Source: Candidatus Saccharimonadota bacterium (lineage in GTDB: Bacteria > Patescibacteriota > Saccharimonadia > Saccharimonadales > 2-12-FULL-41-12). From it: DNA of 45,940 bases. Positions 10,672 through 45,940 of this stretch are shown here, one piece after another (within the stretch, counting starts at the first letter, position 1; each line of letters begins with the position of its first letter). Below the pieces are notes generated by a model. The model saw only the letters and a list, made by a program, of their open reading frames with translations. It made no database searches and had not been told where the DNA came from. The position numbers were made by a program, and so were the translations under genes. The stretch lies in contig JALHOM010000002.1 of assembly GCA_022842995.1 (NCBI GenBank), positions 45,552 to 91,491 of the forward strand, read 5' to 3'.

Positions 10672-10707
10672 AATTTTTTATCTACAAATCTCAAAAATAA
10701 TCTGGAT

Positions 10708-11244: not shown

Positions 11245-11286
11245 ACTTCACAGAATATTGTACCTCGATTGAGCAATTTGACATAA

Positions 11287-11317
11287 TTTACACTACACAG
11301 TATCGATAGGTTATACT
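11287..11317 (+). promoter_or_regulatory. Putative promoter of prmC with almost no leader
   Basis: TTTACA (11287-11292), 19-base spacer, TATACT (11312-11317). The prmC ATG is only 9 bases after the -10 box, so initiation at the usual distance gives a leaderless or nearly leaderless mRNA. There is no Shine-Dalgarno. Confidence 0.45.
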
Positions 11318-11326
11318 CGATGCAGT

Positions 11327-12386: not shown

Positions 12387-12387
12387 C

Positions 12388-20959: not shown

Positions 20960-23900
20960 TTACTCGACAATGAAGTAGTTAAATTTGTAGGTCTTGTTTG
21001 GCTCTGGCTGAGTAGTCGCGCCGAGCACGAATTCTTCAGTAGTTTGCGATACGTAACCACCAAGCATTGCCGATTCGCGGCCAACTGGGGTGATAACTAC
21101 GCGTGGGTCACGGTCGTATTTTTCAAAGAAGAGTACTTTGACGAGGTCACCAGGCTGCAAGCTTTGCGAGCCAGTTGTTAAGGTCAGCGCTCCAGCAGAA
21201 TCATTCCCGTCGATGGTAATAGTCGCGTTGTTGCCAGCCGATGGCAAGACCGAGACTGTTGGGACTTCCCCGCCGGTGCTAATGTGACCGTTCACGACCA
21301 ATCGACCAGTAGTTAATGTTCCTGCAACCGTTAAGTTACCGCCAATTGTTGCGTCGCCAGCGACGGCCAAGTTACCGCCGAGCGAGATATCGCCCGTCGT
21401 GTTGATATTGCCGGTTACCATAACGCCACCCTGGACATTGAGCGTTCCGATCTCGGCGCTGTTTACCTGTAGCATTCCGCTAACCGACGGTTCGTAGTAG
21501 CTGATATTGATGAAGGTCAAAACCTTGCCAGTCCCTTGGCCATTAAATGCTTCTAATGACTTACCGACAGTTGGGCCTGGCTGAATTGCCTTCATCGCAT
21601 ACCCAGGAGTTGAACTAGAAGTAAGGTAATCACCAGGCAAGATAGGGCCGTTTTCATCTGTCACGTTTACCGGAACTCGACCAGCAAGAGCGATCGGAAT
21701 TGGGCGAGCACCATTGATGTGCGTTTCGGCCTGGCTTAGCCTTAGACCTGGTTTTTCAGAGAAGACGCCAAGGATAGTGGAGTCGTTTGAGGTCTGCGTA
21801 CGGCGCACAAAACCAGTTTCGTTTGGATCGATAGACACGAGGCTGCCCGGGAGAATATCTTCGTCACGAGTTGGGTAATCTTCAGCGATATCGTAGGCAC
21901 CAAAGGCGGTTGTAATACCGTGAGAGAAGAGGAAGGAGCCGTTGCTACCCATACCAGGGCTAGCCCCAGACTGTTGTTCGGCTGCGAAGCTAATACTACC
22001 TTCGTTATAGAAGCTCTGAAGTTCTGCGCCATCGTTATCTGATGCAGCACCGAAACGAAGGGCAAAAGACTGTCCTTCAACCGCAGCATATGAGTAAACT
22101 TCGGCTAGGTTTGTTTCAAAAATCGATGTAAATAACTGACCATTCCAGACAGCTAGCGAAGTAACACTGTCGATAGCTGTCGAGACGAACGTACCGGAAG
22201 CAGAGTTGATTCTCGTCAATACATCGCTTCCATCGTAGCGACAAAGCTCCGCTTGTCCGGTAGCTGTAACCGTCGTTTCCGTACCAATGTACAGATGGCC
22301 GTTATATACGGTCATTGCTCTGATAGTGTCTACTCCAGTTGCGCCACAAATTGCTCCATCAACTGCATGAATCTGTGCAAAGTTGCCGGTCGTTCCACCG
22401 TCGTAGCGATAAATTTCGGCATTATTGGCTTCATTGGTTGCCGCGTACATCGAGCCATTATAGACAGCGAGCGACCAGATTCCATCTATTCCAGCACGCT
22501 GAGTAGGAACCACTGTTCCGGCTGTTGCCGAACTGACGCGAGTCCAGGTTGTGCCACCATCGTAGCGACAAATTTCGGCCGCACCAACTTCTTGCGTGCC
22601 AACATATAGCTGAGAATCATACGAAACCATGGACGTAATGCCATCGACGTTGGCTTGGCCACAAATAGTCCCGTCCGCCGCATGAACTACAGTAAAGTCA
22701 CCGGCCGAACCATTATATCGATAAATTTGAGCAACATCATTTTCGTAAGTTCCGAAATATAACTGACCATTTACTACTGTAGACTTGAATACCTGGTCGA
22801 TAGCTGTACGACCCAATGTTGCTATCGTGCCTGGCGTTGCAGTACTTACTCGCGTCCAAGTAGTACCACCGTCATAGCGACAAATTTCGGCCTGACCGGT
22901 GGCAGTTACGGTTGTTGATGTGCCGACATACATATAACCGCCGTGCACTACCATGGTCGTGATGGCATCGACTCCGGTTTGACCACAAATATTTCCATCG
23001 GTTGTGTGGATTTGAGTCCAGATATTGTTTCCATCGTAACGGTACACCTCAGCAGCATCGTTCTCCTGTGTGCCGACATACAATGATCCGTTGTAGACGA
23101 CCGATGACATAACGCCATCTACCGCAATCTGACTACCCGCCGCTGTAATCCTACCCGCTGTAGAGTTGGTTGCTCTGGCGATAGCCGTGGTCGAATCGGC
23201 ACGCTTACCGACCTTTATGTCACCCATGAAGTAACTGTTCCCACCGACACCAAGGTCACTAGCGATCATCGCATCACCGCCAACATTTAGCGCTCCACCT
23301 ACCCTGGTATTGTTATCGACAAACAAATCTTGCGCAGCAAGCGTTGAGACCTCAACATTACCAGCTTGAAGCTGCTGCAAATAGGCTCCACCCAGATCAT
23401 AGACCTCAAAGGTATCGCCAATATAGGTTGGTATGTAGGCGTAGCGACCTTGGATCTCTAAGTCGTATGCTTCTGTTCCGCTCAATACGACTGAGCCGAC
23501 TACCGATGGTGCAGTCGGGGTTGATACATCGAAGATATGGAGCCGGTTCGAGGTGAATGTCGTAACACCGTAAACGTATTGACCGCTAATCCTGAGAGAT
23601 CGAAGCCCATTGCCGGCGGCAGTTGCAACGGTGCCAATCTGGCTCATAGAGGCCGGGTTTTCAACATCGAAGATTTTTAATGTCGACGTAGGCTGCTCGT
23701 CTCCGAGGTACGCATATCTGCCACTGACAACAACCGAAACAACCGCATGAGTAGTTGCCACCGAACCGGCAGAAGTTATCGCATATGGGTTACTGATATC
23801 AAAGACTTCAAGAACGGCTGGCGCCACATTATTCACCACGTAAAGATAGCGACCTTGTAGATATGCATCTTGCGGGTCAGGATTTACCAGCGAACTAGAT

Positions 23901-26900
23901 ACAGTACTTACGAACTGCGGTGCCGTCGGGCTACTAATATCCCAAACTTCAATTTCGGCGGTGCCATTATTCAAGATGTATATGTAATTGCCGCCAATCA
24001 CTAATCGAGCAGGGTCTGCACCACTCCCGAGTGAAACGCTAGCGACGTTGGTGATGTTATTTGGATTCGAAATATCACTAACTTTTAACGTATCGTCGCC
24101 GATGTTTGCCGTATATGCATACCGCCCACTGACAATAACATCATCGGCATTCGACAAAATCGCACCGGAGTTAGCAATATTGGTTGGAGCGCTTGGATTT
24201 GATATATCAAAAACCCTAAATACATTATTGTCGTAACTGACTGAGTAAGCATACTTGCCTTGGATCGAGACGTCGCCAATTGCATTTTGAGCAGTTGCAA
24301 TACCGGTTGTTGTCGTTGGTACGCGACCACCAGAATAGATTTGGCCGGTGTCAGTGCCGTTGTCGCCGAACGAAACGCGGCCGGCTGAGGTGTCAACAGA
24401 CAGGACGTTAACCGAGGCGGCGTTTTGGATGTTAAACATGCCGGCAGCATCAAAGGTTGCACCCGAACGGAAGGTTATTGTCTTGGCGGCAGAGCTCGTC
24501 GTTACGACTGTTGGTGAAGCCGAGTTGTCATAAGCTTGCTGAAGAGTAGTCGAGTTACCACCACAAAGCGCGTCTGTGTGATTACATACTACCTTAACCG
24601 CACCGCCTTCGATGATATTGATTCGACCAGTCGTAGAGTTGTAGAACATACCCCCGTTTAGCGCTGCAAGGTTTGAAGTCGGCACGGTAGTAGATCCATC
24701 GAGTTGAAGAATCGTTGTTGCAGTGTCGGTTCCCGTACTATTTCCAATTTTTATTAAATTACCACCAGAGCCGGACCTGGCAGTTGTATCGGCCGTCAAT
24801 AATGTATCGGCACCGGTGGCATTCTGAATCTGGAAGGCAGTTGCGACGTTAGTGTTTGAACGGACTCGTACCGTGCCCACGCCATCATCATTGATATTCA
24901 TGGAATTGAAGTTACCGCCGCTTCCTAAGAAATAGGTGCCGCCGCCAGAGTACAGAACGCCAGAGGCATTGATGTCGCCACTGACTTGCAAGGCTGCGCC
25001 GCCGGCTGTAGGAGTTTGGTTAATGCCAATCCTAGAGTTAGTGGTGTCTGCAACAAATAGATTAGAGGTGCCGGCTGCGTTTTGAATCTGGAAGGCTGCT
25101 GTTGAGTTAGTCTGGTTTCTGAATGTCGTTGCACCGCCATCGGCAATTGTTAATACATCACGAGAAGTTGCCGTCGTATCAGTAACTACGAATAATGGAC
25201 CGCTGGCGTTGCTAACGTGCAGTAAGGCACTTGGAGAAGTGGTGCCTATACCAACACGGCCGTTATAGTCGACTTGTAAGCTTGGGATCGAGAGCTGCGA
25301 ATTTGATGAATAAAGGGCGGATAATTGCGACTGACCCATAAAACCGTCTTCGGTTAACCATGTTGTAATGATGGCTGTAGGAGAATCGGCATCTTGGTTT
25401 TGAAGTAGTTCATACGATTGTCGGCCAGCTTCACTGTTGTTTGTGCCAGTACCAGCCCCACGGAATATTGCTGCGTATGGTGCACGGAGTGAGCTTGTTG
25501 TCGAGATAGTGCCAAGTTTATCAAGGCCGAGACGGAAAGCGGCGGTACGAAGATTTGTTGTAATACTATTTTCAAATGCATCAACGCTGGTCAAAATACC
25601 AATTTGGTTCCGTGTAAGATTATTAAGAGCCGTAGCAAGGTTATCTGAGTCAGCTGGAGTCCCATAAGTGTCATAGTTGGTTGAGCTAACGTGAACGTGT
25701 GTTGTGGCGGTAATAATCGTAAGGGTCAGACCTCGAGAAGCATTATTCACGTGCGTATCAGAACCAATGCGAACCAAACGGTTGCCCGGGTTGTTATTGC
25801 CAGTGCCACGAATATAGATTGGTTTATTAAGCGTAATTGCCGAGGTAGCAAAGTCGCCACCAGCCACAGTAATGTCGCCGGAGTCTAGAGTCAGACTGTC
25901 GGCAGTAAGCGGATCCTGGATATCGACGCCGCCGTTAGCATTAATTATAAGTGGGTTGGCGCTCGAAGTTATTTGGCCACCATTAACTGCCAAAGTACCT
26001 GATAGTGTAGTGTTACCGGCGACAGCCAAGCCGGTGCCATTAGTCAGGTTAAGGTTCGAAGCATCGAGCAGCATTCGCTCAGTACCGGTCGTTGATGACG
26101 TTGCGCCAGTCCTCCATCTGAACTGCGTGTCCGTCCAGTTAGTAAGCGTGTTGGCTTCGACACCGATTCCTTGGGTGTTACTGTTGAGGTAAATCTTGTC
26201 TGCAGACTCATCGGCAAAGTCGATTTGGTCAGCTGCACCAAGGTTCACGTTTTCGTTAAAGGTTGTAACGGCGCTGAAGCTCTTTGTACCGCTAAACGTC
26301 TGCGTGTTTTCAAGCGTGGCAACTTGGCTCCAAGTTTGCGTACCACTGCCGTTAGTCGACCTGAGGTAGAAGTTCTGGTTGAAGAAGTCACCAGCTAGTT
26401 GTAATGAATAATAGTTGCCGGTGTTGCTGTGAGTAGAAGCAATTAAATGACAGTTGGAGCCACAGCCTGACGGCCAGCCTTCAGCAGGAGTTGCCGTGTC
26501 GGTCTCGTAAAAACCGCTGTCAATCCTCGTAGAAATATTATCGAAAGTCGCTACCCGAATACCATTTGATGACTGGAATAGTATTCCGGTCATAGTGAGG
26601 TTGTCGGTTATGGAAACAGTGCCACCGCCGTCGATTGTTAGCGTGCCGGCGGTTGATGTAAGGTTCCCACCGGTTATATTGATGTCGCCCGATACAGCAA
26701 GTGTTTGGCCAATCGTTACGGCGCTATCATCAAGGTCAGTTACGACGCCGTCAGTCGAAACGCGAAGTCCTGTTGACGCCGAGCCAATATCTACCGTGTC
26801 GTTAAGCACCAAGTTTCCGGTTGAATTTGCGATAGTATCTTGCACATCTAACGTTCCGGCAGCGTTGATAATAATATTCCCTGAAGTTGTTGTCTGCAAT

Positions 26901-29900
26901 GTTAAGTCGCCACCGTTACGGTTAAGTGCCGTGTTGATGTTTACCCCACTCAAGTTCGATAATGAGGTGTTAGCACATGTCGAACAAGTACCATTGCCGC
27001 CTGCTACACCACCTTGTACGCGCCACCTTGTATTGGCAAGGTCATAAATAAGTTCGATTGTTGCCCCGATAGCAAGAGTAATGTCGTTGCCAGTACCGGT
27101 AATGACTCGAGCTCCAGTGGCGCCGGCATTGTCATTTGCAAAAGTTACCGCATTTGATGCATCGACATTGGTAAGTGTTACTCTTTGGCCATCGCGCCCA
27201 GCGGTAATTCCCTGAATAACTTGAGCAGCACCCGAGGTATCCAATAGATAGTACGATGCACCATTAAGCGCGGCACTTGTGGATGTACCAGGGGTTGTAA
27301 ATGTTGAGCCAGCCCTAGTAGCAAACGATACGTTGTTATTTATGTCAGTGTTGCCATTTAGGGCAATTGTACCTGAGACCGTCAGGCCACCGGATCCTTG
27401 CAATAGACCGCTGCCGAAGTTAACGCCAACTGCCGTAACGGCACCATTGCTGGCCACCTGGAAGGCATCCGCCGTACCAGCAAAAAGTGTACCCGAGACA
27501 TCGAAGTTGCCGGTGAGGTTGGTATTGTCTTGAAGTTCAATCGTCCCGACAGAGTTCAAAATAATCTGATCGGCCGAGGTTAGCGTAATGTCATTTGTTG
27601 CGCTGGTTGAAGAAATTTGAATGGCACCAGTGGCTGTGAGGTTACCGATGTTCGTGAGGTTTCCGGAGTTATCGATTCTTGTTAATGAGTTGGTTTGCAA
27701 AACGCCGCCAGTCGTATTGATGTTACCCGAGGCAGCGATAGTGCTCGCTCCGGCAATTGAGCCGGTGTTGGTTATGCCACCGTTGTTATTGTTGAGACCG
27801 CTTGATATTGATGCACCGCCTGAAGCCGTCAAGGTACCGGCAGAGGTAATCGTGCCAGAGCCGGTTGTAGATAGGTTACCGGAAGTTGTAATGTTGTCTC
27901 CAGATGTAGCTGGTGAAAGTGTTGTGCCGGAACGTGTGAAGTAGCCTGAGGTGCCTGTAGCGCCACCGGTGATGTTGCCGGAGCAGGTTAAGTTACCGTT
28001 AGAGCCATCGATAGTACAACCAGTTGAGGCTGAGCCACCGGCGAGATTTATGCCTGTCGCATTGACGGCACCGCCGATGTTAAGCCCGACGGCGTTTGTA
28101 TTAAAGAGTGCTACAGTGCCCGTACTGGTCGTTGTAATCGCACTACCATTTACGGCCAAATCACTCGAAAGCGTTAGCCCACTAAACTGTGGCGAGGCAC
28201 CGGTGTGAATGTTTTGTGGGGTCGATAGTGTAATTGTCCCAGCGCTGTTATTGACGCTAATTTGGTTAGACGTCCCTTGAACGGTAACGGCACCGCTGAA
28301 GGTGTTTACCGTACTAACACCACCAGAACCAGGACATGACGCCCACGTTGGAGCTCCAGCAGTCGAAGTAAGACAAAGCCCCGCGCTCCCAGCGACTAAC
28401 GAGCTGATCGCCGATGTTCCATTGCCGAGCAAGACACCGTTGCTGCCCAGGGTCGTTGCGCCGGTACCACCGTTAGCGACAGATAGCTGTACTGTTAGTC
28501 CAACAGCGCCGGTGACGTTGAGGGCGCCGCCAATGGCAACAGTTGAACCGTTATCGGTAATGGTTGAGTTGCCCAGTGTTTGTGTGCCAGTAAATTTAGC
28601 GATGGTATTGTTTGTACCACCAGCAGTGGTAACACCGCCGCCAGAACCAGCACAGTTGCCGGTTGAAAGACAGATACTTGCCGTGGCGCCACCTGGATCC
28701 GGTAGAGTATAAGCCGTAGCCTGACCGAGGTTAGCAACTTGTAAAGTTCCATTACTTCCAGCGCCAGTCATGATTAATTGGGCGGTTGTTACACTGGTTG
28801 TGAACGTTGGGTTGTTGACGGTCGAGAGACTACCGCACGTTCCACCGCTACCGAGGGTAATTGAGTTACCGCCACCACTTAAATTGCCGGTACCAGAAGC
28901 ACAGACAAGTGAAGTATTACCTTGAACTGCCGTGTTAGCAGCCGAACCGTAGGCAACAGCCAAAGAAGTCGAGGCTCCGAGCGCTACCGAGCCACCACCA
29001 CTTAAGCCATTACCAGCAGTAACCGTTAGAGATGAATTAACGAGGTTTGAATTGGCGACTGTTGTTGCGCCAATATCGGTGCCCGTGATTGTTCCGTTGG
29101 AAATTTCCGTTGAAGTTATGCCTCCCGTCGCAATTGTTACTGCGCCAGAAGCTACTGAGAAGTTAGATGCATTGAAGCTCGCGATACCTCTGGCTGTCGT
29201 AGTCGCGTCATCGATAGTGATGTTGCTACCAGAGCCAGTTGCATTCGAGATAGTCAAAGTGCCTGACAAGCCGTCCAAACTGATGACACCGCTACCACCG
29301 CCACCAGAGCCTGACAAACAAGTTCCAAAGCTTAAGTTTCCAGCGCTATCGGTCTTCAAACAATCACCGTTGCCGCCGTCGGAGCTTGGCAAACGAAGAA
29401 CTAAGTTCGAGCCTGGATTTGCGTTTGGAGCCTGGATCGACACCGTATTGGCACCGGCAGTGTTATAAAACGCAATAGAACCAGCATTCGTGCTGGCTGT
29501 TCCGACCGCTAAGCTGTTTGCTCCTTGCAAGACCAAGTTACCCGTTGCTGTTAGCGTTGAGCCACTTTGGCTAACCGTCGAGTTACCGATTGAGCTGGTG
29601 CCGCTGAATAATGCGAGGTAATTTGTTGTACCGCCGGCAGTGGTAACGCCACCACCAGATCCAGCACAGTTGCCGGTGGATAGACAAATAGTTGCCGAAG
29701 CAAGGCCAGGATCTGGCAAGGTATAGACCGTATTTTGACCAAGGGCAGCCGTCTGGAGCGTACCGGTATTACTTGATCCATCATAGATGACAACACCACC
29801 GGCAACCGTAGTAGTACCGAATGTTCCCGTACCACCCTGAACTGCTAAGTTACCAGTAAGTGTGAGACTACTAAACTGCGGTGACGAGGTGGTATTGAGG

Positions 29901-32900
29901 TTTTGTGGCAATGATAAGGTGATTGTGCCCGCGCTGTTGTTAACATTTACCTGGTTAGCCGTACCTTGAACAGTCACTGCACCGCTAAAGGTATTTACCG
30001 TGCTAACGCCGCCAGAACCTGGACATGAAGCCCATGATGGTGCACCGGCCGTTGAAGTTAGACACAGGCCGGTACCACCAGCAACTACCGAGCTAATGGC
30101 GCCGGTACCGTTACCGATTAATACGCCGTTGCTACCCAAGGTTGTCGCGCCGGTACCACCCTGCCCTACACTTAATGCCGTTGTAAGACCGGTTAATGAA
30201 GTAATGTCACCGTTAGCACCTGAGGCAGCAGCACCAAGGTTAGACCTGGCTCCAATTGCATTAGCTGCTCCCGTACCACCATTTGTAACCGATAGGTTGT
30301 TCGTAAATAATGTTCCGCTATTTCGGTCAGCAGCACCCGATGATATCACTCCACCAGATGACTGGACTAATCCGTTAGAAAGCCCGCTTAACGTTAATCC
30401 AGTAAACTGTGGCGAGGATCCCGTGTGAATGTTTTGCGGTAAAGATAATGTTAATGTCCCAGAACCGCTAGCAACCGAAACCTGGTTAGCGGTGCCTTGG
30501 ATGGTAATGGAGCCAGTAAAGCCATTAACATCGTCAACGCCACCTGCCCCACCTGGGCACGCGCCCCAAGACGGGGCACCGGCTGTCGACATAAGACAAA
30601 GGCCTGTTCCGCCGGCTACAATCGAGCTCAATGCGCCAGTTCCATTGCCGACGATCACGCCATTACTGCCAAGGGTTGTTGCGCCGGTACCACCCTGCCC
30701 TACGCTGAGAGCCGTTGTGAGACCGGAGAGACTCGTAATGTCACTGTTAGCACCAGAAGCCGCGGCCCCAAGGTTAGTTCGAGCGTTGATCGCGCTAGTT
30801 GCGCCGGTACCGCCGTTGCCGACAGACAGCGCCGTAGTCAAGGTAACTGCTCCGGTGACATTAAGAGCAGAGCCGATGCTAACGGTTGTCCCGTTATCTG
30901 TTATATTCGAGTTCGCGATTGATGAAGTGCCACTAAATTTTGCAAGAGTATTCGTTGTGCCTCCAGCCGTCGTAACACCACCGCCGACACCGGCACAGTT
31001 ACCACTCGTCAAACAAATAGTCGTCGAAGCGAGACCAGGATCTGGCAAGGTATAGACCGTATTTTGACCAAGACTAGCCGTTTGGAAGGTCGCCGTATTA
31101 GTGCTGCCGTCATAAATAATGACACCGCCAGCTTGCGTGGCAGTACCGAATGTTCCGGTTCCGCCAGATACCGTTAAGCCGCCACTGAGTGTCAAACTAC
31201 TGAACTGTGGCGAGGATGTCGTGTTTAAGTTTTGCGGCAAAGATAACGTAATCGTGCCCGCACCACTACTCACATTAACTTGATCGGCCGTACCTTGAAT
31301 TGCTACCGCACCAGTAAAGGTATTGACCGAGCTAACACCGCCAGACCCTGGACAAGCCGCCCATGACGGCGCACCAGCAGTTGAAGTAAGACAGAGTCCG
31401 GTACCACCAGCCACAACTGAACTAATTGCGCCACCACCATTTCCAATCAGAACACCATTTGTCGACAGGTTATTCGTACCTGTTCCACCTTGCGGTACAG
31501 ACAGTGCAGTTGTTAGTCCAGACAGAGACGTGATGTCGCCGTTAGCACCAGAGGCGGCGGCCCCAAGGTTGGACCTGGCTCCGATTGCGTTGGTCGCTCC
31601 TGTACCGCCATTTGTCACCGATAGGTTGTTCGTAAATAATGTCGCACTATTGCGGTCTACAGCCCCAGAAGAGATCACACCACTGGCAGACTGAACTAAT
31701 CCATTACCCAATGAAGTAAGGGTTAGCCCGCTAAAGGTTGGCGTGGAGTTTGTGTTGATATCTTGCGGCAAAGAAAGCGTCACTACGCCCGTTGCACCGG
31801 ACACCGCAACTTGATTGGCCGTACCAGCCAGCGAGCGAACGCCGGTGTTTGAAATTGTACTTCCGCTCAGTCCAAGGCCACTGCCGATTGTTAACCCGCC
31901 ACTTGACGTCGTAACGCCGTCGGTCACCGAGTTCACAATTGAAGGCACTCCGGTTAACTGCCTAAAGCCGATTGTCCCGACCGATATTGCACCGGCTTGA
32001 GTGACAATAAATCGGTCAGTTCCATTGTCACTTAAGTGCAGTAAGTTCCCGGTTCCCGTCTTGTCGATCCGGATACTTGGGAAATTCGAAGAGTCAGTCT
32101 GCGTGATGGCCGGACCAAGCGCAACCGTACCGCCGGTACCAATTCCGGACTGTGAAATGGTGTAATTTCCATTACCGTCTTCAGTAACGATCAGGCTAAT
32201 ACTTCCGGAGGTTAATGAGACCGTTGAGCTCAAAGAATTTCCGGCCTGCGCCAAACCTCTGCCGATTGCCAGATTGCCGCTTGCGCCACCGACAGATCGA
32301 ACGCCGGTATTGCTGATTGTTGTTCCGGATAGGCCAATTCCGTCTCCAGCCAAAAACAGTACCGATCCGGTCTGACCTTGAACACTGGTAACTGCTGCGG
32401 CATTTACGGCATTATTAATTGCCGTCGCAGACAGTGTGTTGCCTTGTAGGGCCAAACCATTACCGAGGCCAATAGCCCCACTGGCTCCACCGACTGTTGA
32501 AACAGTCGATGATTGATTAGCGACAATCTGAAATGCCGTACCGTCATAATATGACATTTGATTAGTGTCTTTATTGAAATAAAGCTGGCCCGTTAGCGGA
32601 GTTGACGGAGCTGTAGTCGGTGTTATTACCAATCCACCATTAACGCGCAGTAAACCATTAATATCAACTTGCCCTAGCTGACCTAGATTGAGCTGATCCG
32701 CACTGACAGCGCTAAAAGCCGATTGCGAAAGCGGCACTTTTTTAAATCCACTATTTTCGGTGCTATCTTTCTGGCTTTTGACGAAAACGAAACCAATCAA
32801 GAATATAAAGATCAAGACCAAAACAGCGGCCACCGAGGTCCAAAGACCCAATCGAACAGATTCTTTGACCGACTGTCGCTGAACCTGCTCAGCTACCCCT

Positions 32901-32980: not shown

Positions 32981-32987
32981 ACTACCC

Positions 32988-33800: not shown

Positions 33801-33821
33801 TTGTTTTTGTTTTTGATGATC
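33778..33821 (-). repeat. Direct duplication across the start codon of the 270-aa gene
   Basis: On the minus strand GATCA-TC-AAAAACAAAAACAA is followed at once by GATCA-ACAAAAACAAAAACAA. The second copy begins inside the ATG-ATC start of the gene. The resulting A/C-rich ribosome entry region has no Shine-Dalgarno sequence. Confidence 0.55.
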
Positions 33822-33828
33822 TGATTAA

Positions 33829-33857
33829 AGTATAGGCTCGCCTCTGTTACTAAGCAA
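33829..33857 (-). promoter_or_regulatory. Putative sigma70-type promoter for the 270-aa, 4006-aa and beta-helix genes
   Basis: Minus strand TTGCTT (33857-33852), 17-base spacer, TATACT (33834-33829), about 30 bases before the ATG. It lies in the only sizeable gap (142 bases) of the five-gene surface cluster and could drive the three downstream genes independently of the two upstream ones. Confidence 0.55.
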
Positions 33858-33942
33858 TAGAATTATTGCGTATATGAGTACAAAAAATACTAAATATACA
33901 CATTATCTGTGGATAAGCGTTGTAATTTTCTATAACACGGCT

Positions 33943-36270: not shown

Positions 36271-36272
36271 GG

Positions 36273-39200
36273 TTATTGTACTACAAAGTAATCATATTCA
36301 TAGACCTGTCCCGGTGCCATAGGTGATTTAATTTTTATTATGAAGAAATCGTTCTGGGCATCTCGATATACCGGCATATCGACGGCGGAACTATTAACTG
36401 GATCGATGAAAATCCGCGGCTTAGTTTGGTAGGTCTTCTTGAAGGTAATTTTGACGATTTCGCCAGCGCCAAGCGGAGCGGTTAAGGAGGTAGTATCAAT
36501 AGAAATTGTTCCGGAAATATCGTTGCCGGTTAACGTCACTACAGGGTCTTGAGTATTGGCACCGAGAACAATACCTTGAGCGATATCAAGATCAGGCACC
36601 TGACCAAATGTTATAACGTGGCCGCCAAAGCTGACATCGGCCGCGAAGGTTGCATTGCCGGTGACGTCCAGATTGCCATTTACTTTCAAAATGCCACTGA
36701 CCAGCATGTTACTGAACATCGCATATGAAGCACCTTGGATCTCAGTTATCGGTGTGTAGTAATCGGTCTGTACAAAGACTTCGATGGTTCCACCACCAGT
36801 GACTGATTGCAGTGCGCGACCAACGATCAGACCTTCGGTCGTTGCCTTTTCGCCCATGCCAGGGTTATTCGGCGACAGCATGATTGGGTCGCCGATGGCG
36901 ATGTTGCCAACGACTTTGAGCGGAACTCGACCAACGAGAGCTACCATGCGCGTATCGGTTCGGTTTGCCTTGTAGTCCTTCAGGGCAAGACCCGGTTTGG
37001 TTGAGATGATACCAAGCGTATTCTGCCTATCACCCACTCCAGCCCGGCGCAGTTTACCGGTAGAAGGGTTAAGGGCAACGATCTCTGCAGCAACCAAAGA
37101 CTGATCTTCAACTTCATATTCCTCGGCAACGTCAAAATTATTTACATAGAAGTTTTCGCCGTAAAAATTAGCCGCGTAGACATTGCTGAAATAATTGGTC
37201 AGAGAGCCGATATTAAATCCACCCGAGGTAATATCGCTCGTAGCCAAGCTACAGGCATCGTCTGCACATTTGACTATAAACAAGTCATTGCTCAGATTAT
37301 TGTTAAAGTCCCAGTAAGCAATAACCGGGAGATTATCATTACCTATAGCCACTGAGCTCCATTCCCCAATACGACCAGTCTCCAGATTGGAGTGAACATT
37401 CCCGCTCGAACAGTTATTAGTACCACATTTTGTAATGATAAGCTCATCGCTTGTCGTCAGCGCCTCGTTGCGCCAACTTGTAATAAGTGGCAGTCCGTCT
37501 GCACCGATAACTATCCGAGGGTGCTCTCCAAAAATCCACGTTGCTGGGTTTGCAATCTCTGTCCGAGTAGATGTCGAACACGAATGGTTAGTGCAATTTA
37601 TGACCGTCGGAACATCGCTTGATGCTTCATAAAAAACTATAATCGGATAGCCTGCGCTGTCCAAGGTAATATCAGGCGCCCAACCATCGGAATCACCAGT
37701 TGCAAATTTGGTCAAAGTGTATGTTGAACAAGTTGCATTATTACACTTTGCAACAGCTAAATCAGTATCGGTTTCGTTCTGCATAGCAATAATTGGCGTA
37801 CCGTCAGCCGCGATAGTTACCGCCGGAGCCAAACCGAGCGAGTCGGCATCGCTAACAGTATTGAGCGTCGTGAACGCTGTGCACGCTGTAGTTGTACACT
37901 GATAGATCCTTAGTTGGTCCGTAGCGGCGTTGTTGGTAGCTACAATAATCGGCAAACCATCACTGCCGATAGTTATGTCAATTCCTCCACTATTATTTGG
38001 CACTCCCAAACCAACGCTCAATCCAGCTTCAGTGATTGTTGTATTCGTACGTGAGGTACAGCTTGTATCGGCGCATTTGGTCACGACAACATCGGTATTC
38101 GTAGAATCATAATGCGCAATAACCGGATAACCATCCGTCCCCAACGCAGCGGCGGCAAATTGACCCCAGTTAGTTGCACCGCCGTCGATGTCGGTCTTTG
38201 TTCCAGCCTCGCTACCGGTACATTGAGCATTTGCGCATCTATAAATACGCAGATCACTACCAGTCTGCTCCCAGTATGCAATTACCGGAATTCCGTCGCT
38301 CGGGATGAGGACTTCATTATATTGGCCTGTTGCGTTGGTTGCATCGGCCAAAACCGAAGTCCTAGTAGTTCCAGAGTTGCTCGGCGGATAAGCAGCGAGG
38401 ATATTGCCGCTGAAGGTGCTGTTACCAGTAGTATCGACCGCGATTCTGGTAACGCCGTTAGTGCCTATGTTCAACGTATTCATGCCACTCGATTGGATGT
38501 TATTGAGATACGCAGACTGAAACGCTGTGGTGCTTGAACCAAGGTCAACTCCGCCACTTACCGCACTGCCTGTCGAGGTTGCGCAGTCTGTCGTTGCACA
38601 TCGGGTAATTCGGAGATCCCCGCCAGTGTTGTTATGGTGCGAGATAATCGGCAGCCCGCTCGGTAAAATGGCCATCGAGCTATACGATCCTACGTCGTTA
38701 GTGGTCTCAAGTTCGGTGTTGGTGTTTGTTCCCGTACAACCTGCAGACGTACAACGCAGTACCTGCAGGTCAAGGCCTGTTGCATCGTAGTATGAGATGA
38801 TCGGCATTCCATCGCGGCTTATTGCAAGGTCAGCCCATTCGCCAACAAAGTTTGTCGAAACAACTTGCGTTGTAGTTGGTGTTGCGCAGGTTAGGCTGTC
38901 GCATTTCGTAACGTATAGATCGCCACCGGTTAATTCGTGATGCGCAATAACCAAGAAGCCATCAGCCCCGATCGCAGCCTCGATATCATTACCTGAGTTA
39001 CCCGTTGCGTAAATCGTTGTAGATGTATTCCCCGATGAACATGCAGCGTTGCCACAACGTGTATAGCGGAGGTCAACTGTAGTTTGATCTGAATGAGCGA
39101 TCAGCGGACGTCCGTCAGCCGGAACAGATATAGAAGCGTAGGCACCGACGTTGTTAGTAGAGTCAACAACGGTCGTTGTATTACCACTACTACAGCTCAC

Positions 39201-42200
39201 ATTGCCACATTTAGTCACCTTGAGGTCGTCGGCCGTGTCATCGTAGTAAGCGATGACGGGAAGGCCATCAATACCCAAAGCTACCGAAGCGTGTCTGCCT
39301 GTATCGGCGGCGTTGTCAACGGTTTGTGGCGTCCCTGATGTACAGCTCATATTTGTACATTTTAGGAACCTGAGAGCAGAGTTCGTGACGTCGTAGTAAG
39401 CGATCATTGGCAGGCCGTCATTCCCAAATATAACACTCGGGAATTCGCCGACATCAGCAGCAGAGGTATCGACGGCATTAGACGTGGCACCGGTGCTGCA
39501 AGATTCTGTAGCGCATACGGTAAACCTAAGATCACCGTTTGTATTGTCATGGGACGCAACAACTGCAAAGCCGGTTGGGCTAACAGCAATTGAACTAAAT
39601 AGTCCCGTGTCGGTGCCGAGATCAACATCGGTGCCGACATTTGATGTTGTTGTTGAGCTAGCTACGGTTACGGGTATTATGCCAGCGTTGGTCTTTATGA
39701 GTGAATTGCTCGTATCAACACTGAGCAAGCTTGTACCAGCCGCGTTCCTTACCTGGAAAGCTGACTCAGAGTTAAAGCCACCACCGGACTGAATAACTAC
39801 ATCTTTGGTCGCCGATGAAGTCGTAATCGTCGCTGGACTCGAAGAATTGTCATAGGCCTGTTGCAAGGTGGTCGTTGAACCACCACCCGCACCACAGTTT
39901 TGATCGGTTGTATTACAGAGCGTCTTAACAACACCGTTTTCTATAATACTGATCTTATTAGTCGTTGAGTTATAGAACATACCACCGTTTAGCGCACTGA
40001 GATTAGAAGATGGCGCGGCTGTCGCAGCGTCCAGCTGAAGAACAGTCGTATCAACGTTAGTGCCTGTGCTGTTTCCAATCTTAACCAAGTTTCCGCCACC
40101 CACACCACGAACAGTCGTATCTACACGGAGTAATGTTTCTGAGGCTGCGTTATTTATTACCTGGAAAACATCCGTATCATCGGCAGCCTGAACGATAACT
40201 CCGCCTGTTCCCGCCTGCAACCTGGTTGTTCCGGTGCTAGCAGTTGATCCGACAGTAACAGTCTTAGCTCCAGTACCACCCGTGCCGAAGTTGAGAGCCT
40301 GAATCGATGTGCCAGTTCCGATAGATACTGTCGCCGTACTGTTGGTGCCAATACTGATCGTTCCAGCGGCTCCTGCCTGTATAGCAACCGCACTTGCCCC
40401 GGTACCACCTTGAATTGTTGTAGCACTAGTACTGAGCAGGTTTCCGATTGTAACATTGGTTGTCGAAGACGCCGTTGCATTATTACCTATGCCAATTGTC
40501 TGTGCCACTGCGCCAGTTGTCGTACCGATCTGAATTGTCTTTGCCTGCCCACCAGTACCAAGGTTAATCGTCGGCGTCGAACCGGAAGTTGCATCGAGCG
40601 TAAGATTGCCCGTAGAAGTAGTGAAGCTTGAAGCTGCGTTTCCGGTCAGTGAAACCGCACCGGTAGTTTGGGTCAACCCGCCAGTTATTGTGGTCGAGCC
40701 AGCTTCGAATTCACCAAAGTTAATTGTCGGGGTTACGTTCGTAAATCCGACAGAAGGTTCTGCAGGCGTCGATGTCAGATCGATCCATTCACCATCGACG
40801 AGTTCTCTTGCGACAATATTTAGAGCGTGGAAGTTAGTACCATTTCCGGTTGTAATACCCACGATATGCTTTGTGAGAGAATCCGTTGCAAGCGCATCCT
40901 CACCGTAGACCCTGAGACTGTGGAACGTTGGGTCTGCACCGCCGTTATATTCCTGCTTCTTGATAACGACGCCTCCGCGGAATTCAATATAGTAAACTGT
41001 TGTACCTCCCCCAGTATATGCACCCCCAGTCACCTCAACCATGACTCGATCTGGTGCACCCAAGTTACCTGTACCGATGAACCGTCTATTGAGCTCTATC
41101 CAGTCGGTAGTGTTTGTTGCAACAGAGAAGCCTGATGCTGACGGACTAAAGACGCTGCCGTTAAACGTAGCATTCCCGGTTACTGATAATGTACCGCCTA
41201 ATGAAGTCGCTCCAGAAGCAACCGTCAAACCAGTAACTCCCGTGATTGCACCAGCAGCAGAGATATCTATGTTGGTTGTTTGGAGTGAGAAGGTGCCAGA
41301 GCCACCACCGATGGTTACAAGGCCGTTGCTGGATCCTGTATTTATGTTGGTGGCATTATTTGAGCTGGCGTTTATATCAACTTGAGCACCGGTTATGTCC
41401 AGGCCGGCCGTTCCAACAAATTCTCCTGCAGAGGTGATATAGGCAAGATCTGTCCCTGATGAATTTTCTGCAACAAATAAGTTTCCAGATTGACCTGCGC
41501 TACCTTGTGCCACCAAAACTGGCCGCGTAGCTTGACCCCCAAGCACTAACACAGACGCGTCATTGACCCCACCCGCAGTATAGCCCGGAAGTGCTGCCTG
41601 CCGATTACCCTGTAGTACAAGCCCCCAATATCCATACAACCCTGTTTGCTGGCCATTCCCAGACTGCAAGCCATCACTTCCCTGAGATAGATCAAATCGA
41701 CTATATTCTCCTGCACTCCAATCAGTAAATCCAATCGTTCGAGGCGAGCCCGCACTAGAACCGTTAGTGCTTACCCTTAGATCCCCAGAATCAATTGTTA
41801 GTGAATCAACATTTACGGCGTCTTGTATATCAACATTTCCACCAGCGTTAAGCGCCAACGTAGCGGCCGTTGAAGTAATACTACCGCCATTAGCAGCTAG
41901 CGCACCCGCTGCAGTTATAGTGCCGGTACCTGAAGTCGAGATGTTACCAGAAGTTGTAATGTTATCGCCAGCTGTTGCAGTTGAAAGCGTTGTTCCTGAT
42001 CGCGAGAAGAAACCAACTGTACCGGTTGATGAGCCGGTGATGTTGCCAGAACATGCCAGGTTTCCGTTGGAGCCGTCGATAGTACATCCAGTAGAACCAG
42101 AACCGCCAGCCAATACTATGCCGCCTGCACCAACTGCTGCGCCGATATTCAATGTCGTTACATTGGACTGAAGTAAATTGAAGGTTGTTGCGGTCGAAGT

Positions 42201-45200
42201 AAGGTCGCCGCCATTTACAGCCAGATCACCGCTAAACGTACCGTTACCTGAGCCATCCACCCTCAGAAGACTTACATCACCTACTCCTTGAATATCCAAA
42301 CCATTGGCAGAACCAACACCAGAACCACCCACCCTAATTCGTGCCTGATCTAACGCGAAATTAAATGAAGCGCTTGCAAGCGAATTATTCGGATTATTTA
42401 CTGATATATTGCTTGCGTTCGTCAAGGCGCCACCGGTGCTGATATCTAGACCCGAGCTGTCTATTGAAAAATTACCCCCACCACTGAAAGCAAACGTACC
42501 AGTTGTTTGAGAGTAACCAGTGATGTTGGTGAGGCCGCCGGCGTTGGTGATGCGATCAGTTGAGTTGGTTTGGATAGCACCGCCGGTGGTGTTAAAGGTT
42601 CCGGAGCCGGTGATGGTGGTAGCGCCGGAGATAGCTCCAGCATTAGTGATGCCGGTATTGTTAGCGTTTATGCCTCCAGCGGTGACAGTTAAGCCACCGG
42701 CGGTGATGGTTATGCCGCCTGTTGTTACTGTTAGATTCTCCCCAATAGTCACTGACGTATCATTTATGTCCGTAATAACCCCCGCCGTCGTAATCTGCAA
42801 ACCAGTCGTAGCCGAACCAATAGCCACTTGGTCGTTAAGCACTAGATCCCCAGAAGCATCAAAGATACCACCGTCAGCGTTGAGAGTGCCTGTTACTCCA
42901 AGTGTTCCGCCAATGGTGGCGTTGTTGGTAACGTCAAGAGCAGTTCCGGCTGATGCGAGGGTGACTGCTCCATTGAAGGTTTTAGCTCCCGCGAAGGTTT
43001 GGGTGGTCGTGCTGACGAGACCAACGTTGGTGGCGTCTGCTGTTTGGAGGAAGATTGAGTTGGAAGAGATGACAGCACCGTTGGCACTCTTGGTCTGAGA
43101 GTCAATAGTCCCAACGGTTGTGACGCCAGAACCTGCACCGTTAGCAACATCACCAATGACACGCCAGCGAGATGCACCGGCGTCATAGATAAGACTTATG
43201 GAAGCATTGACGGCGAGGTTTATGGAAGCACCGGTTCCGGTGAGGATACGGTTGCCTGGTGTGGCACCAGTTTCGTTAGCGATGACGGCAGCATTACTTC
43301 CAGCGTTGACGATGGTCAGTTGTTCCCCATCTCGACCACCAGCAATGGAGTTGAGGGTTTGAGCGCTTGCTCCGGTCAGTCTGACGAGGGAGACATCGCC
43401 AAAGTTAGCGTCAGCAATCGTGCCGGTGGTTGCGAAGTCAGAACCTCGGAGGGTCGCAACAGAACCAGTGAAGTTAGAGATACCGGTGACACCAAGAGTT
43501 CCACCAAGTGTAGTAGCTCCGGAGTTAACGGTGAAGGTGTTAGTACCAGTGACCGTGGTTGCACCATTGAGAGATACCGCACCAGTTCCTGTTCCGAATG
43601 TCCCTGCCCCACTCTGGAGGAAGTTACCGGAAGACTGAGAGTAACCAGTGATGTTTTCGAGAGCTCCAGCATTGGTTAAGCGAGAAGTACCGGCAGTGGT
43701 AAGACCACCGGAAGTAATAGCGACGTTGCCAGTGTCGGCAGTAAAGCTATCTCCCGTGACATTGTCTTGGATATCTACGGTACCACCAGCGTTAATGTTG
43801 AGGGTAGCAGCACCGGAAGTGATGTCACCTCCACCAACGGATACATCACCGAAGACACTGAGGTCTTCGCCGATGGAGACGGCGGTGCCGTCAAGGTCGG
43901 TGATGGAGCCAGCGGTAGTTACCTGGAGACCAGTGGTAGCAGAACCAATGAGGACTTGGTCGTTAAGGACAATGTCACCATTGATGTCAGAGATAACACC
44001 AGCCGCATCAATGCGGATTCCATTGGCAGCAGAACCAAGGTCAACGGTGTCGTTGAGGATAAGGTTGCCGGTGGAACTAGATACAGCGTCTTGGAAGTCT
44101 ATGACACTAGAAGCAGAGTTGAGGATGATGTTACCGGAGGTTGTGGTTTGGAGGGTGAGGTCAGCAGAGGTGGCGTTGAGGGCGGTGTTTATGTTGACGC
44201 CGGAGAGGTTAGAGAGAGCGAGGTTGGCACAGGTGGTACAGGTGCCGCCAGCAACTGAACCAGCTACTCGCCAGAAGGAAGTAGCAGCGGAACCTGACCA
44301 GTCATAGACAAGTTCAACAGCACCACCAGCTGGAAGAGTTAGATCAGCACCAGTGCCAGTAACAATCCTGTTACCGTCGGATGAACTGCCGGAGTTGTTA
44401 CTGAGAGTCGCGGCCTGAGCAGCAGAGTTAATAAGAGTTAGGATACGACCATCAGAAGCTGAAGTACCAGCTGCAATACCGGTGATGGTTTGGGTAGAAG
44501 CACCAGTCAGGCGGATGAGAGCACCAGAGAGAGCGACGTTGTTGGTAGTACCAGTGGCAGTGTAGTCACTACCCTTGGTGGTAAGGAAGTTCGCACCCGC
44601 TGCGATGGTCGTAGCACCGTTCAAAGATACTGCACCAGTTCCTGTTCCGAATGTACCAGCACCGGTTTGAACGAAGTTGCCAGAAGCAAGGGTTAGGCCA
44701 GTGGCGCCCGTAATCGCACCAGCAGCCGAGATGTCTATGTTCGTTGTTTGGAGTGAGAAGGTGCCTGAGCCACCACCGATGGTTACAAGACCAGTTGATC
44801 CTCCAGTGTTAATGTTTGTGGCGTTATTTGAGCCAGCATTAAGGTCAATCTGACCACCAGCTGCCGAGAAGGTGCCAGTTGTTTGAGAGTAACCAGTGAT
44901 GTTGGTGAGGCCGCCGGCGTTGGTGATGCGATCAGTTGAGTTGGTTTGGATAGCACCGCCGGTGGTGTTAAAGGTTCCGGAGCCGGTGATGGTGGTAGCG
45001 CCGGAGACGGCACCGGCTTCCGTAATACCACCTGAGTTATTATCTATTCCACCAGTGATAGTTGCACCACCCGCTGAAATAGTGAGATTTTCGCCCACGG
45101 TAACAGACGCATCATTGAGATCTGTAATCACACCAGCCGTTGTTATATTAATGCCATTTGCACCACCAACTTGAACTTGATCATTAAGGACGAGATCCCC

Positions 45201-45940
45201 ATTAATATCGAGAATTGAACCGTCGGTGGCAACACGAATACCATTTACACTAGAGCCGATATCTACGGTATCGTCGAGGACAAGGTTGCCACTAGAGTTT
45301 AGTATCGTCCCCGTTAATGTGAAGTTGCCGGTTAAGGCGGCTGTTGTCGCGGTTAATCCGTAGGTATTTACCGCTTGCTGCACAGTTGCACTGTTCGCAC
45401 CTGGGTCAGCCACCGAAGCAAAAGCATTTGCCCAAGTTCCAAGGTGAGTTCGAGCGAATACGGTATGTCGCGAGAAAGTGCCAAAATTAGCGTACACATC
45501 ATAAGTATTCCGCGTACCATTTTCTACAAATTTAACGTCAGTCACGACCCTAGTCCCGCCAATTGAATACCAGCTACCTTGCGCATTTGCCACCAAAGCG
45601 CTCGCATTATTTCCGAGCGAACCTATAATAATCGTTTCGCCGTGATCTGTTTGGGCCTGACCATATCCAGTAGCACCCAAGATCGTAATCTCAATACGAG
45701 CACCACTTCCTGTTCCTGCAAAAGTTCCTATACTTCTCCAACCTGCAGACCCCCCGGAGTCGGCCTCGCCAGCATTATTCCGGGTATAGATTGTATTCAA
45801 GCCACCATTTGCACTCGTTACGCCCGTCACCGCGAGTGTCGTTGAAACAGTCGTAGCACCGTTCAAAGATACTGCACCAGTTCCTGTTCCGAATGTACCA
45901 GCACCGGTTTGAACGAAGTTGCCAGAAGCAAGGGTTAGGC
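36273..45940 (-). CDS. Giant fibre protein, at least 3222 codons, N-terminus outside window
   Basis: The frame is open to the right edge; the residues from 45866 upward (LTLASGNFVQTGAGTFG) continue the repeat pattern, so the start lies beyond the window. The stalk (about 39,700-45,940) has beta repeats such as GNLVLDDTVDIGS and tail-fibre-like globular inserts (near 45,360-45,790, 41,410-41,740 and 40,730-41,120). Two seven-bladed propellers follow (39,680-38,545 and 38,395-37,215), with blades of the form DGLPVIAYYD and a Cys pair per blade (KCGNVSCSSG). A G2-like domain starts FDVAEEYEVED (37,130) and a C-terminal beta domain ends YEYDYFVVQ. It matches the 4006-aa protein in plan but the propellers are of another family. 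It is the first gene of the five-gene cluster visible here. Confidence 0.85.
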   Translation of the reverse strand, partial: LTLASGNFVQTGAGTFGTGTGAVSLNGATTVSTTLAVTGVTSANGGLNTIYTRNNAGEADSGGSAGWRSIGTFAGTGSGARIEITILGATGYGQAQTDHGETIIIGSLGNNASALVANAQGSWYSIGGTRVVTDVKFVENGTRNTYDVYANFGTFSRHTVFARTHLGTWANAFASVADPGANSATVQQAVNTYGLTATTAALTGNFTLTGTILNSSGNLVLDDTVDIGSSVNGIRVATDGSILDINGDLVLNDQVQVGGANGINITTAGVITDLNDASVTVGENLTISAGGATITGGIDNNSGGITEAGAVSGATTITGSGTFNTTGGAIQTNSTDRITNAGGLTNITGYSQTTGTFSAAGGQIDLNAGSNNATNINTGGSTGLVTIGGGSGTFSLQTTNIDISAAGAITGATGLTLASGNFVQTGAGTFGTGTGAVSLNGATTIAAGANFLTTKGSDYTATGTTNNVALSGALIRLTGASTQTITGIAAGTSASDGRILTLINSAAQAATLSNNSGSSSDGNRIVTGTGADLTLPAGGAVELVYDWSGSAATSFWRVAGSVAGGTCTTCANLALSNLSGVNINTALNATSADLTLQTTTSGNIILNSASSVIDFQDAVSSSTGNLILNDTVDLGSAANGIRIDAAGVISDINGDIVLNDQVLIGSATTGLQVTTAGSITDLDGTAVSIGEDLSVFGDVSVGGGDITSGAATLNINAGGTVDIQDNVTGDSFTADTGNVAITSGGLTTAGTSRLTNAGALENITGYSQSSGNFLQSGAGTFGTGTGAVSLNGATTVTGTNTFTVNSGATTLGGTLGVTGISNFTGSVATLRGSDFATTGTIADANFGDVSLVRLTGASAQTLNSIAGGRDGEQLTIVNAGSNAAVIANETGATPGNRILTGTGASINLAVNASISLIYDAGASRWRVIGDVANGAGSGVTTVGTIDSQTKSANGAVISSNSIFLQTADATNVGLVSTTTQTFAGAKTFNGAVTLASAGTALDVTNNATIGGTLGVTGTLNADGGIFDASGDLVLNDQVAIGSATTGLQITTAGVITDINDTSVTIGENLTVTTGGITITAGGLTVTAGGINANNTGITNAGAISGATTITGSGTFNTTGGAIQTNSTDRITNAGGLTNITGYSQTTGTFAFSGGGNFSIDSSGLDISTGGALTNASNISVNNPNNSLASASFNFALDQARIRVGGSGVGSANGLDIQGVGDVSLLRVDGSGNGTFSGDLAVNGGDLTSTATTFNLLQSNVTTLNIGAAVGAGGIVLAGGSGSTGCTIDGSNGNLACSGNITGSSTGTVGFFSRSGTTLSTATAGDNITTSGNISTSGTGTITAAGALAANGGSITSTAATLALNAGGNVDIQDAVNVDSLTIDSGDLRVSTNGSSAGSPRTIGFTDWSAGEYSRFDLSQGSDGLQSGNGQQTGLYGYWGLVLQGNRQAALPGYTAGGVNDASVLVLGGQATRPVLVAQGSAGQSGNLFVAENSSGTDLAYITSAGEFVGTAGLDITGAQVDINASSNNATNINTGSSNGLVTIGGGSGTFSLQTTNIDISAAGAITGVTGLTVASGATSLGGTLSVTGNATFNGSVFSPSASGFSVATNTTDWIELNRRFIGTGNLGAPDRVMVEVTGGAYTGGGTTVYYIEFRGGVVIKKQEYNGGADPTFHSLRVYGEDALATDSLTKHIVGITTGNGTNFHALNIVARELVDGEWIDLTSTPAEPSVGFTNVTPTINFGEFEAGSTTITGGLTQTTGAVSLTGNAASSFTTSTGNLTLDATSGSTPTINLGTGGQAKTIQIGTTTGAVAQTIGIGNNATASSTTNVTIGNLLSTSATTIQGGTGASAVAIQAGAAGTISIGTNSTATVSIGTGTSIQALNFGTGGTGAKTVTVGSTASTGTTRLQAGTGGVIVQAADDTDVFQVINNAASETLLRVDTTVRGVGGGNLVKIGNSTGTNVDTTVLQLDAATAAPSSNLSALNGGMFYNSTTNKISIIENGVVKTLCNTTDQNCGAGGGSTTTLQQAYDNSSSPATITTSSATKDVVIQSGGGFNSESAFQVRNAAGTSLLSVDTSNSLIKTNAGIIPVTVASSTTTSNVGTDVDLGTDTGLFSSIAVSPTGFAVVASHDNTNGDLRFTVCATESCSTGATSNAVDTSAADVGEFPSVIFGNDGLPMIAYYDVTNSALRFLKCTNMSCTSGTPQTVDNAADTGRHASVALGIDGLPVIAYYDDTADDLKVTKCGNVSCSSGNTTTVVDSTNNVGAYASISVPADGRPLIAHSDQTTVDLRYTRCGNAACSSGNTSTTIYATGNSGNDIEAAIGADGFLVIAHHELTGGDLYVTKCDSLTCATPTTTQVVSTNFVGEWADLAISRDGMPIISYYDATGLDLQVLRCTSAGCTGTNTNTELETTNDVGSYSSMAILPSGLPIISHHNNTGGDLRITRCATTDCATSTGSAVSGGVDLGSSTTAFQSAYLNNIQSSGMNTLNIGTNGVTRIAVDTTGNSTFSGNILAAYPPSNSGTTRTSVLADATNATGQYNEVLIPSDGIPVIAYWEQTGSDLRIYRCANAQCTGSEAGTKTDIDGGATNWGQFAAAALGTDGYPVIAHYDSTNTDVVVTKCADTSCTSRTNTTITEAGLSVGLGVPNNSGGIDITIGSDGLPIIVATNNAATDQLRIYQCTTTACTAFTTLNTVSDADSLGLAPAVTIAADGTPIIAMQNETDTDLAVAKCNNATCSTYTLTKFATGDSDGWAPDITLDSAGYPIIVFYEASSDVPTVINCTNHSCSTSTRTEIANPATWIFGEHPRIVIGADGLPLITSWRNEALTTSDELIITKCGTNNCSSGNVHSNLETGRIGEWSSVAIGNDNLPVIAYWDFNNNLSNDLFIVKCADDACSLATSDITSGGFNIGSLTNYFSNVYAANFYGENFYVNNFDVAEEYEVEDQSLVAAEIVALNPSTGKLRRAGVGDRQNTLGIISTKPGLALKDYKANRTDTRMVALVGRVPLKVVGNIAIGDPIMLSPNNPGMGEKATTEGLIVGRALQSVTGGGTIEVFVQTDYYTPITEIQGASYAMFSNMLVSGILKVNGNLDVTGNATFAADVSFGGHVITFGQVPDLDIAQGIVLGANTQDPVVTLTGNDISGTISIDTTSLTAPLGAGEIVKITFKKTYQTKPRIFIDPVNSSAVDMPVYRDAQNDFFIIKIKSPMAPGQVYEYDYFVVQ
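36760..37135 (-). other. Peptidase_G2-like domain in the right-hand giant
   Basis: Starts FDVAEEYEVED, then VAAEIVALNPSTG, LGIISTKPGLAL, MVALVGRVPLKVVG, IAIGDPIMLSPNNPG and IVGRALQSV. Each block aligns with the domain in the 4006-aa protein at 21490-21915. Confidence 0.55.
37215..39680 (-). other. Two tandem seven-bladed, Cys-paired beta-propellers in the right-hand giant
   Basis: I count seven DG-x-P-type blade motifs in each (first: 38,545-39,680; second: 37,215-38,395). A typical blade has NVGxYASIAIGxDGLPVIAYYDxT, then DL-x-V-x-KC-x-x-x-x-CSSG (pattern written from several blades). Nearly every blade has the two Cys four or five residues apart, suggesting one disulfide per blade. Confidence 0.75.
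42499..42631 (-). repeat. 133-bp exact direct repeat, copy 1
   Basis: Identical base for base to 44875-45007 (2376 bases apart, same strand) within the giant gene. It codes stalk sequence including ITNAGGLTNITGYSQTTGTF. Identity at silent positions points to recent duplication or gene conversion. Confidence 0.85.
44608..44698 (-). repeat. 91-bp exact direct repeat, copy 1
   Basis: Identical to 45850-45940, 1242 bases away. It codes NFVQTGAGTFGTGTGAVSLN. The second copy is cut by the window edge, so the true repeat may be longer. Confidence 0.85.
44875..45007 (-). repeat. 133-bp exact direct repeat, copy 2
   Basis: Partner of 42499-42631; flanking sequence diverges sharply on both sides. Confidence 0.85.
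45850..45940 (-). repeat. 91-bp exact direct repeat, copy 2 (cut by window edge)
   Basis: Partner of 44608-44698. Confidence 0.85.

Follow-up and report, generated by a model that had tools for sequence, protein, structure and literature searches.

The window, the whole stretch of 45,940 nucleotides analysed here, spans positions 45552-91491 of contig C2 (length 91491) in a genome of 1.11 Mb and 30 contigs. Five tightly packed genes on its minus strand, running from 45938 down to 19472 and separated by 2 to roughly 140 bp, encode two giant proteins (P0001 and P0002, referred to by position as the left and right giants) together with P0003, P0004 and P0005. The contig stops, at the end of the window, exactly where the ORF of the right giant is still open. 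The genes of the row and the synteny anchors beside it are as follows.

36273-45938, minus: right giant, at least 3221 aa, its N-terminus lying past the contig end (ORF open at window end)
33943-36270, minus: P0003, glucose/sorbosone dehydrogenase-like propeller with CBM6/CBM35 and terminal transmembrane (TM) helices (Pfam, hydropathy)
32988-33800, minus: P0004, 270 aa, signal peptide, G2-like ectodomain and two-helix hairpin with a GRNP loop; 7 bp before the left giant
20960-32980, minus: left giant, 4006 aa, N-in anchor, stalk, LVIVD propeller, YNG propeller, G2-like domain, cap (ORF, blade HMMs)
19472-20950, minus: P0005, right-handed beta-helix protein with a TM helix at each end (Pfam, hydropathy)
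18174-18950, minus: ParA, synteny anchor of the giant's slot
17304-18173, minus: ParB, synteny anchor of the giant's slot
16320-17000, plus: signal peptidase S26 (LepB), synteny anchor

Both giants' ORFs are open and unaltered under genetic code 11, and code 25 was ruled out. P0003 and P0005 have a common N-terminal anchor pattern (IRHxK/RNIA...) and each a C-terminal TM helix, which makes them flanking surface proteins of a second type within this gene row.

Architecture of the two giants

Whole-protein scans of P0001 and P0002 against Pfam, NCBIfam and PHROG named almost nothing besides LVIVD, ILEI and one tail-fibre match. Blade HMMs were built from the window sequences, and the same profiles, with Pfam, were used on the giants of relatives. 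The modules, all on the minus strand, are listed from the N-terminal side of each giant.

Left giant:
32780-32836, minus: residues 49-67, sole predicted TM helix (hydropathy)
24767-32683, minus: residues 100-2738, tail-fibre-like beta stalk (sequence)
25490-25735, minus: residues 2416-2497, ILEI domain within the stalk (Pfam PF15711, 1.6e-6, above cut-off)
24314-24766, minus: pre-head stalk module, sharing 62% identity with its right-giant counterpart
23351-24271, minus: residues 2904-3210, head 1, seven-bladed LVIVD/YVTN-type propeller (blade HMM x7, Pfam, PDB profile)
22088-23119, minus: residues 3288-3631, head 2, seven-bladed YNGxLYVGT-type (YNG) propeller (blade HMM x7, model)
21506-21892, minus: residues 3697-3820, G2-like domain of tail-spike chaperone type (profiles)
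20966-21364, minus: residues 3873-4005, C-terminal cap, H-type-lectin-like (profiles)
Right giant:
39708-40097, minus: pre-head stalk module (alignment to that of the left giant)
38559-39608, minus: head 1, seven CYD blades (DGLPVIAYYD...C-x4-C) (blade HMM)
37248-38408, minus: head 2, seven CYD blades, model resembling PLL/PHL lectins (blade HMM, AF2, Foldseek)
36783-37133, minus: residues 2936-3052, G2-like domain (profiles)
36279-36701, minus: residues 3080-3220, C-terminal cap (profiles)

The initial annotation had read both giants as a stalk, two seven-bladed propellers, a G2-like domain and a C-terminal beta domain, with LVIVD and YNG heads in one and CYD heads in the other. The blade HMMs bear out this order and these head types, counting seven plus seven blades in each giant; the 14 CYD blades of the right giant (residues 2111-2897) fall into two sets of seven. 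The terminal motif that it had described, Y-x-(F/Y)-(N/D)-Y-F-(I/V)-V-(E/Q), is present as YKFNYFIVE and YEYDYFVVQ in the two giants. As it had also proposed, the flanking modules are homologous and the propellers are not: the pre-head stalk pieces are 62% identical over 130 residues and the G2-plus-cap regions align with an E value of 1.9e-36 (28.5% identity), whereas the heads of the left giant aligned to those of the right showed no relation (best E value 0.16). In the left giant, about 48 residues would be cytoplasmic, followed by the single TM helix, with the remainder predicted to be extracellular. The ILEI (FAM3-like) domain in its stalk is possibly a further carbohydrate-binding element.

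The first head of the left giant matches Pfam LVIVD (PF08309) at 2.2e-20, above cut-off, and a profile of five LVIVD heads retrieves seven-bladed proteins from the PDB, with the surface-layer propeller 1l0q at 7.9e-16. By sequence, the YNG and CYD heads match nothing in Pfam or the PDB, whether an enzyme family or any other, and were therefore modelled with AF2 from shallow alignments of five and two sequences, respectively. The model of CYD head 2, with four-stranded repeats, reached a pLDDT of 70.7 and a pTM of 0.79, and the YNG model a pLDDT of about 72 across its residues 28-383. In Foldseek searches of the PDB, the 14 best matches of the CYD head 2 model were all seven-bladed sugar lectins of the Photorhabdus PLL/PHL type (best E value 1.6e-10, TM scores 0.68/0.76), and the best fold matches of the YNG model were propellers of many kinds. 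Shallow as they are, both models clearly predict a propeller fold, in support of the assignment made from the repeats.

The folds of the G2-like domain and cap are assigned from sequence profiles, because models of both came out with low confidence. The G2-like profile has its best, though weak, PDB matches in the C-terminal domain of phi29 gp12 (3gqh, E value 0.009), aligning from gp12 residue 692 of the full-length chain, and PF11962 is matched below its cut-off in one relative at an E value of 0.001 (19 bits, with a cut-off of 25). In gp12, a Ser precedes the motif and Ser-Asp is the cut site. The residue preceding the D(I/V/L)AE motif is Tyr or Phe in the window giants and Ala, Asn, Thr, Tyr or Phe in relatives; a Ser before the Asp at the gp12-type site is absent from the G2-bearing giants examined. 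Because this residue is not Ser, gp12-style cleavage is not expected, and the chaperone probably remains attached, unlike that of gp12. Other giants carry Peptidase_S74 instead, with PF13884 matched in L059 at 2e-6 (above cut-off) and the canonical SD..LK present in L065, L076, L109 and L074.

The caps form one family (50 matches) with two subfamilies, cap1 and cap2. H_lectin (PF09458) is matched by 15 of 27 caps, the best at 0.0035, with the listed scores below the Pfam cut-off. In the PDB, the cap profile weakly matches mostly H-type lectins, among them the Helix agglutinins (0.035-0.09), plus a phage tail spike. The cap thus appears to weakly resemble H-type lectins; the matches, all of them weak, are a consistent lead and no proof.

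Head sets at the orthologous slot

Giants were extracted from 61 relatives and further genomes and annotated with the blade and module profiles and Pfam. The slot of the left giant is syntenic across the order, and in many genomes reads (IleRS) - small G2 protein - giant - ParA - ParB - (LepB, LytR). Comparison of orthologous loci had been envisaged with the initial annotation, and heads do change at this one locus: among the giants of 17 genomes in the slot 5' of ParA-ParB there are nine head sets. Mapped on the ParA tree, these 17 giants require nine changes of head set and seven of chaperone type. None of the four head types lies within the covered sequence in 8 of the 17, and since contig ends cut 11 of the 17 at the 5' side, the upstream absence of heads is uncertain for those 11.

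Supported sister pairs illustrate the variation. The complete giant L071 (Kelch6-CYD7-LVIVD7-CYD7-cap) is sister to the complete L075 (Kelch6-CYD7-cap), the left giant (LVIVD-YNG-G2-cap) to L068 (Kelch-S74-cap), and L054 (YNG-G2-cap) to L059 (S74-cap). L081 carries all four head types in series, as YNG7-Kelch6-LVIVD7-CYD14-G2-cap. The end of the fibre is itself modular, with G2, S74 or neither, and with either cap subfamily. G2 or cap is present in 43 of the 61 relatives; YNG and CYD heads are rare (13 and 8 of 295 genomes, respectively).

In the tree of G2 domains, the four that follow a YNG head cluster in a single clade (97/95), and the four that follow a CYD head in a second one (100/99). 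The type of the G2-adjacent head changes twice on this tree, the minimum possible, and the cap subfamily eight times. The low number of head changes indicates that the last head and G2 were inherited together, which places the zone of exchange in the upstream heads and the cap. The initial picture of heads swapped on a conserved stalk and cap therefore stands in part: fibres are modular, unrelated heads sit on related flanks and the locus varies, but it is too simple in that the G2-adjacent head stays with its G2 subtype, and chaperone and cap subfamily vary too. The G2 grouping is mildly rejected by the cap data (p 0.037), and the cap grouping strongly by the G2 data, a hint that the P0001 and P0002 lineages may have exchanged caps. 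No such exchange is claimed, since the groups were picked with the trees already in view and the cap branches are weak.

The source genome encodes at least three further giants, L089 (G000:C12; 1773+ aa, CYD), L064 (G000:C3; 1937 aa, G2-cap) and L109 (G000:C10; 3577+ aa, S74-cap), two of which end at contig breaks. Outside the order and class, L112-L115 combine LVIVD or Kelch heads with a cap (and G2 in two), making the fibre type phylum-wide, with the cap present in 32 of 240 genomes. In other families, L082 and L084-L088 are proteins of about 1170-2150 aa with 14 YNG blades and no G2 or cap, several of them ending in VLTIILNxLxKVFGx. In one genome (G051; L047:2707-3168 and 3144-12755, minus strand), the cap has an ORF of its own, of 153 aa, which overlaps by 25 bp a giant terminating in a second G2-like domain; this may reflect a split gene, a frameshift or an assembly error.

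A probable modular surface fibre

We consider it likely that both giants are membrane-anchored, chromosomally encoded modular surface fibres, with propeller heads in series, a chaperone and an H-lectin-like C-terminus, and with binding as their putative function. From the cell outwards, such a fibre would begin with a cytoplasmic tail and a single helix through the membrane, as in the left giant, and continue as a tail-fibre-like beta stalk of great length. Next would come between one and several complete propellers in a row, then an intramolecular chaperone or trimerization domain of tail-spike type (G2-like in these giants and S74 in relatives) and, at the C-terminal end, an H-type-lectin-like domain. 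The fibre may fold as a trimer nucleated by the G2 or S74 chaperone, with heads and cap distal, where they could bind glycans on the surface of a host or neighbouring cell. When entire propellers are gained, lost or exchanged, the bound ligand, and hence the choice of partner, would then change. The position at the tip, the trimer, host recognition and an episymbiotic lifestyle are all putative.

Patescibacteria, the group supported for the source genome by matches to named sequences, are ultra-small bacteria, and little is known of how they recognize partner cells. Head turnover at one chromosomal place is a plausible way to alter which partner cell is attached; with a fixed slot holding complete propellers as variable cassettes, strains differing in head set should differ in binding. 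The fibres may instead serve self-adhesion, biofilm formation or surface shielding. We think this somewhat unlikely: several giants per genome would suit it, but head turnover at a fixed locus better fits a ligand that changes.

Variety without exchange is an improbable account, in which heads, G2 and cap diverged jointly and a long multi-propeller ancestor resembling L081, with its four head types, suffered unequal loss. Loss surely contributes, the G2-adjacent head does co-vary with the G2 subtype, and contig truncation explains part of the missing heads. Loss alone is at odds with the differing head orders, YNG-Kelch-LVIVD-CYD (L081), Kelch-CYD-LVIVD-CYD (L071), LVIVD-YNG (window) and Kelch-YNG (L045), with nearest relatives that differ module by module, and with the FG-GAP, MAM, CBM4_9 and beta-helix parts found in other giants beside Kelch and glycine-rich ones.

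The heads could also be displayed enzymes (glycosidase, sialidase-like or lactonase-like) that degrade polymers, with binding secondary, since fold matches of the head models include sialidase and other glycoside hydrolase propellers; the neighbouring P0003 is moreover dehydrogenase-like with a CBM6. We regard this as quite improbable, given that non-enzymatic lectins hold the top 14 places for the CYD head and that neither YNG nor CYD matches an enzyme family of Pfam or the PDB by sequence. Least credible, and very improbable, is that the giants are prophage genes or remnants, phage tail fibres whose head variety is ordinary receptor-binding-protein exchange: stalk repeats, G2, S74 and cap do have phage relatives by profile, but the slot lies amid housekeeping genes (IleRS, ParA-ParB, signal peptidase) and is kept across the order, the giant has a predicted N-terminal membrane anchor, its G2-plus-cap region is unmatched in 50,697 phage records, and in 2.9 million viral contigs patterns from these sequences found neither a CYD2 relative nor one of the G2-plus-cap region of either giant. 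Searches of those contigs for related heads turned up remote LVIVD/YNG loci only, which were left out of the alignments.

As surface fibres, the giants belong to a known kind, the modular fibre with variable heads; their setting and combination of parts are new, with building blocks of phage tail spikes (G2, S74, stalk repeats) put to cellular surface display. No publication describing these fibres was found in the literature searched, subscription journals being outside its scope. Phi29 gp12, with Peptidase_G2, and the endosialidases, with propeller head, stalk and S74, are tail spikes with intramolecular chaperones. Phage tail spikes share with the giants a long beta fibre, a head and, near the C-terminus, a G2 or S74 chaperone (G2-like in the giants of the window, S74 in relatives); the giants differ in being membrane-anchored, chromosomal and syntenic, in carrying several propellers in series, and in having another domain after the chaperone and no gp12-type Ser before the cut site. 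The PLL/PHL lectins of Photorhabdus, which bind fucose, are the best fold match of the modelled CYD head, which differs from them in lacking a sequence match, in its paired Cys per blade and in being part of a giant fibre. LVIVD/YVTN surface propellers such as 1l0q are, like the first left head, seven-bladed, sequence-homologous and from a surface protein, but the LVIVD head shares a tail-spike-like fibre with further heads. H-type lectins (Helix pomatia agglutinin, discoidin) are the family of most of the weak, sub-cut-off cap matches and thus a candidate relative of the cap.

In the same bacterial group, the seven-bladed propeller of the minor pilin PilX2 of Nanosynbacter lyticus has been proposed as a host adhesin (PMC12206443); this is an RCC1 propeller on a type IV pilin, without stalk, chaperone or cap. 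Giant1-5 of Apilactobacillus kunkeei, an unrelated taxon, are giant extracellular proteins of neighbouring genes in a small genome (PMC12863079); the likeness drawn here is one of gene neighbourhood and size.

P0004 and an F1-like ATPase operon

Co-conservation marks P0004 as the giant locus's own membrane partner. The GRNP loop of its hairpin is invariant in 33 sequences of the family, and the family hairpin has the two helices and R-(N/Q)-P loop characteristic of ATP-synthase subunit c, which is also its best profile match in the PDB (E value 0.019). P0004 has no match to PF00137, and the acidic residue in helix 2, the ion-binding carboxylate, is absent from 33 of 34 family members; an identity as F-type ATP synthase subunit c was dropped on account of the missing carboxylate. 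The family tree largely separates giant-associated from F1-associated paralogues, with three context changes among 34, and P0004 itself sits on a long branch of unsure placement. The paralogue in L094 matches phage cement and minor-capsid families.

In 16 loci (L078, L094-L098, L121, L123, L126-L130 and L133-L135), the F1-associated paralogue adjoins b-like, OSCP-like, alpha, gamma and beta genes; no ATPase a or ordinary c genes were found within these loci. An ordinary ATP synthase, which has a and c genes of its own, is encoded separately in the source genome. The display locus is thereby tied to a protein family common to an uncharacterized F1-like ATPase operon. It is conceivable, though decidedly unlikely, that P0004 is a disabled membrane protein derived from subunit c, with an extracellular G2, in which case its paralogue in the F1-like operon would mean that a repurposed rotary ATPase without an ion channel forms the base of the fibre system or drives it. 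Such a surface fibre machine powered by F1 would be similar in principle to the gliding motor of Mycoplasma mobile, which is F1-like (PMC11864180). The F1-like operon, a second ATPase operon, is widespread in the order and often adjoined by a small convergent TM-cap protein.
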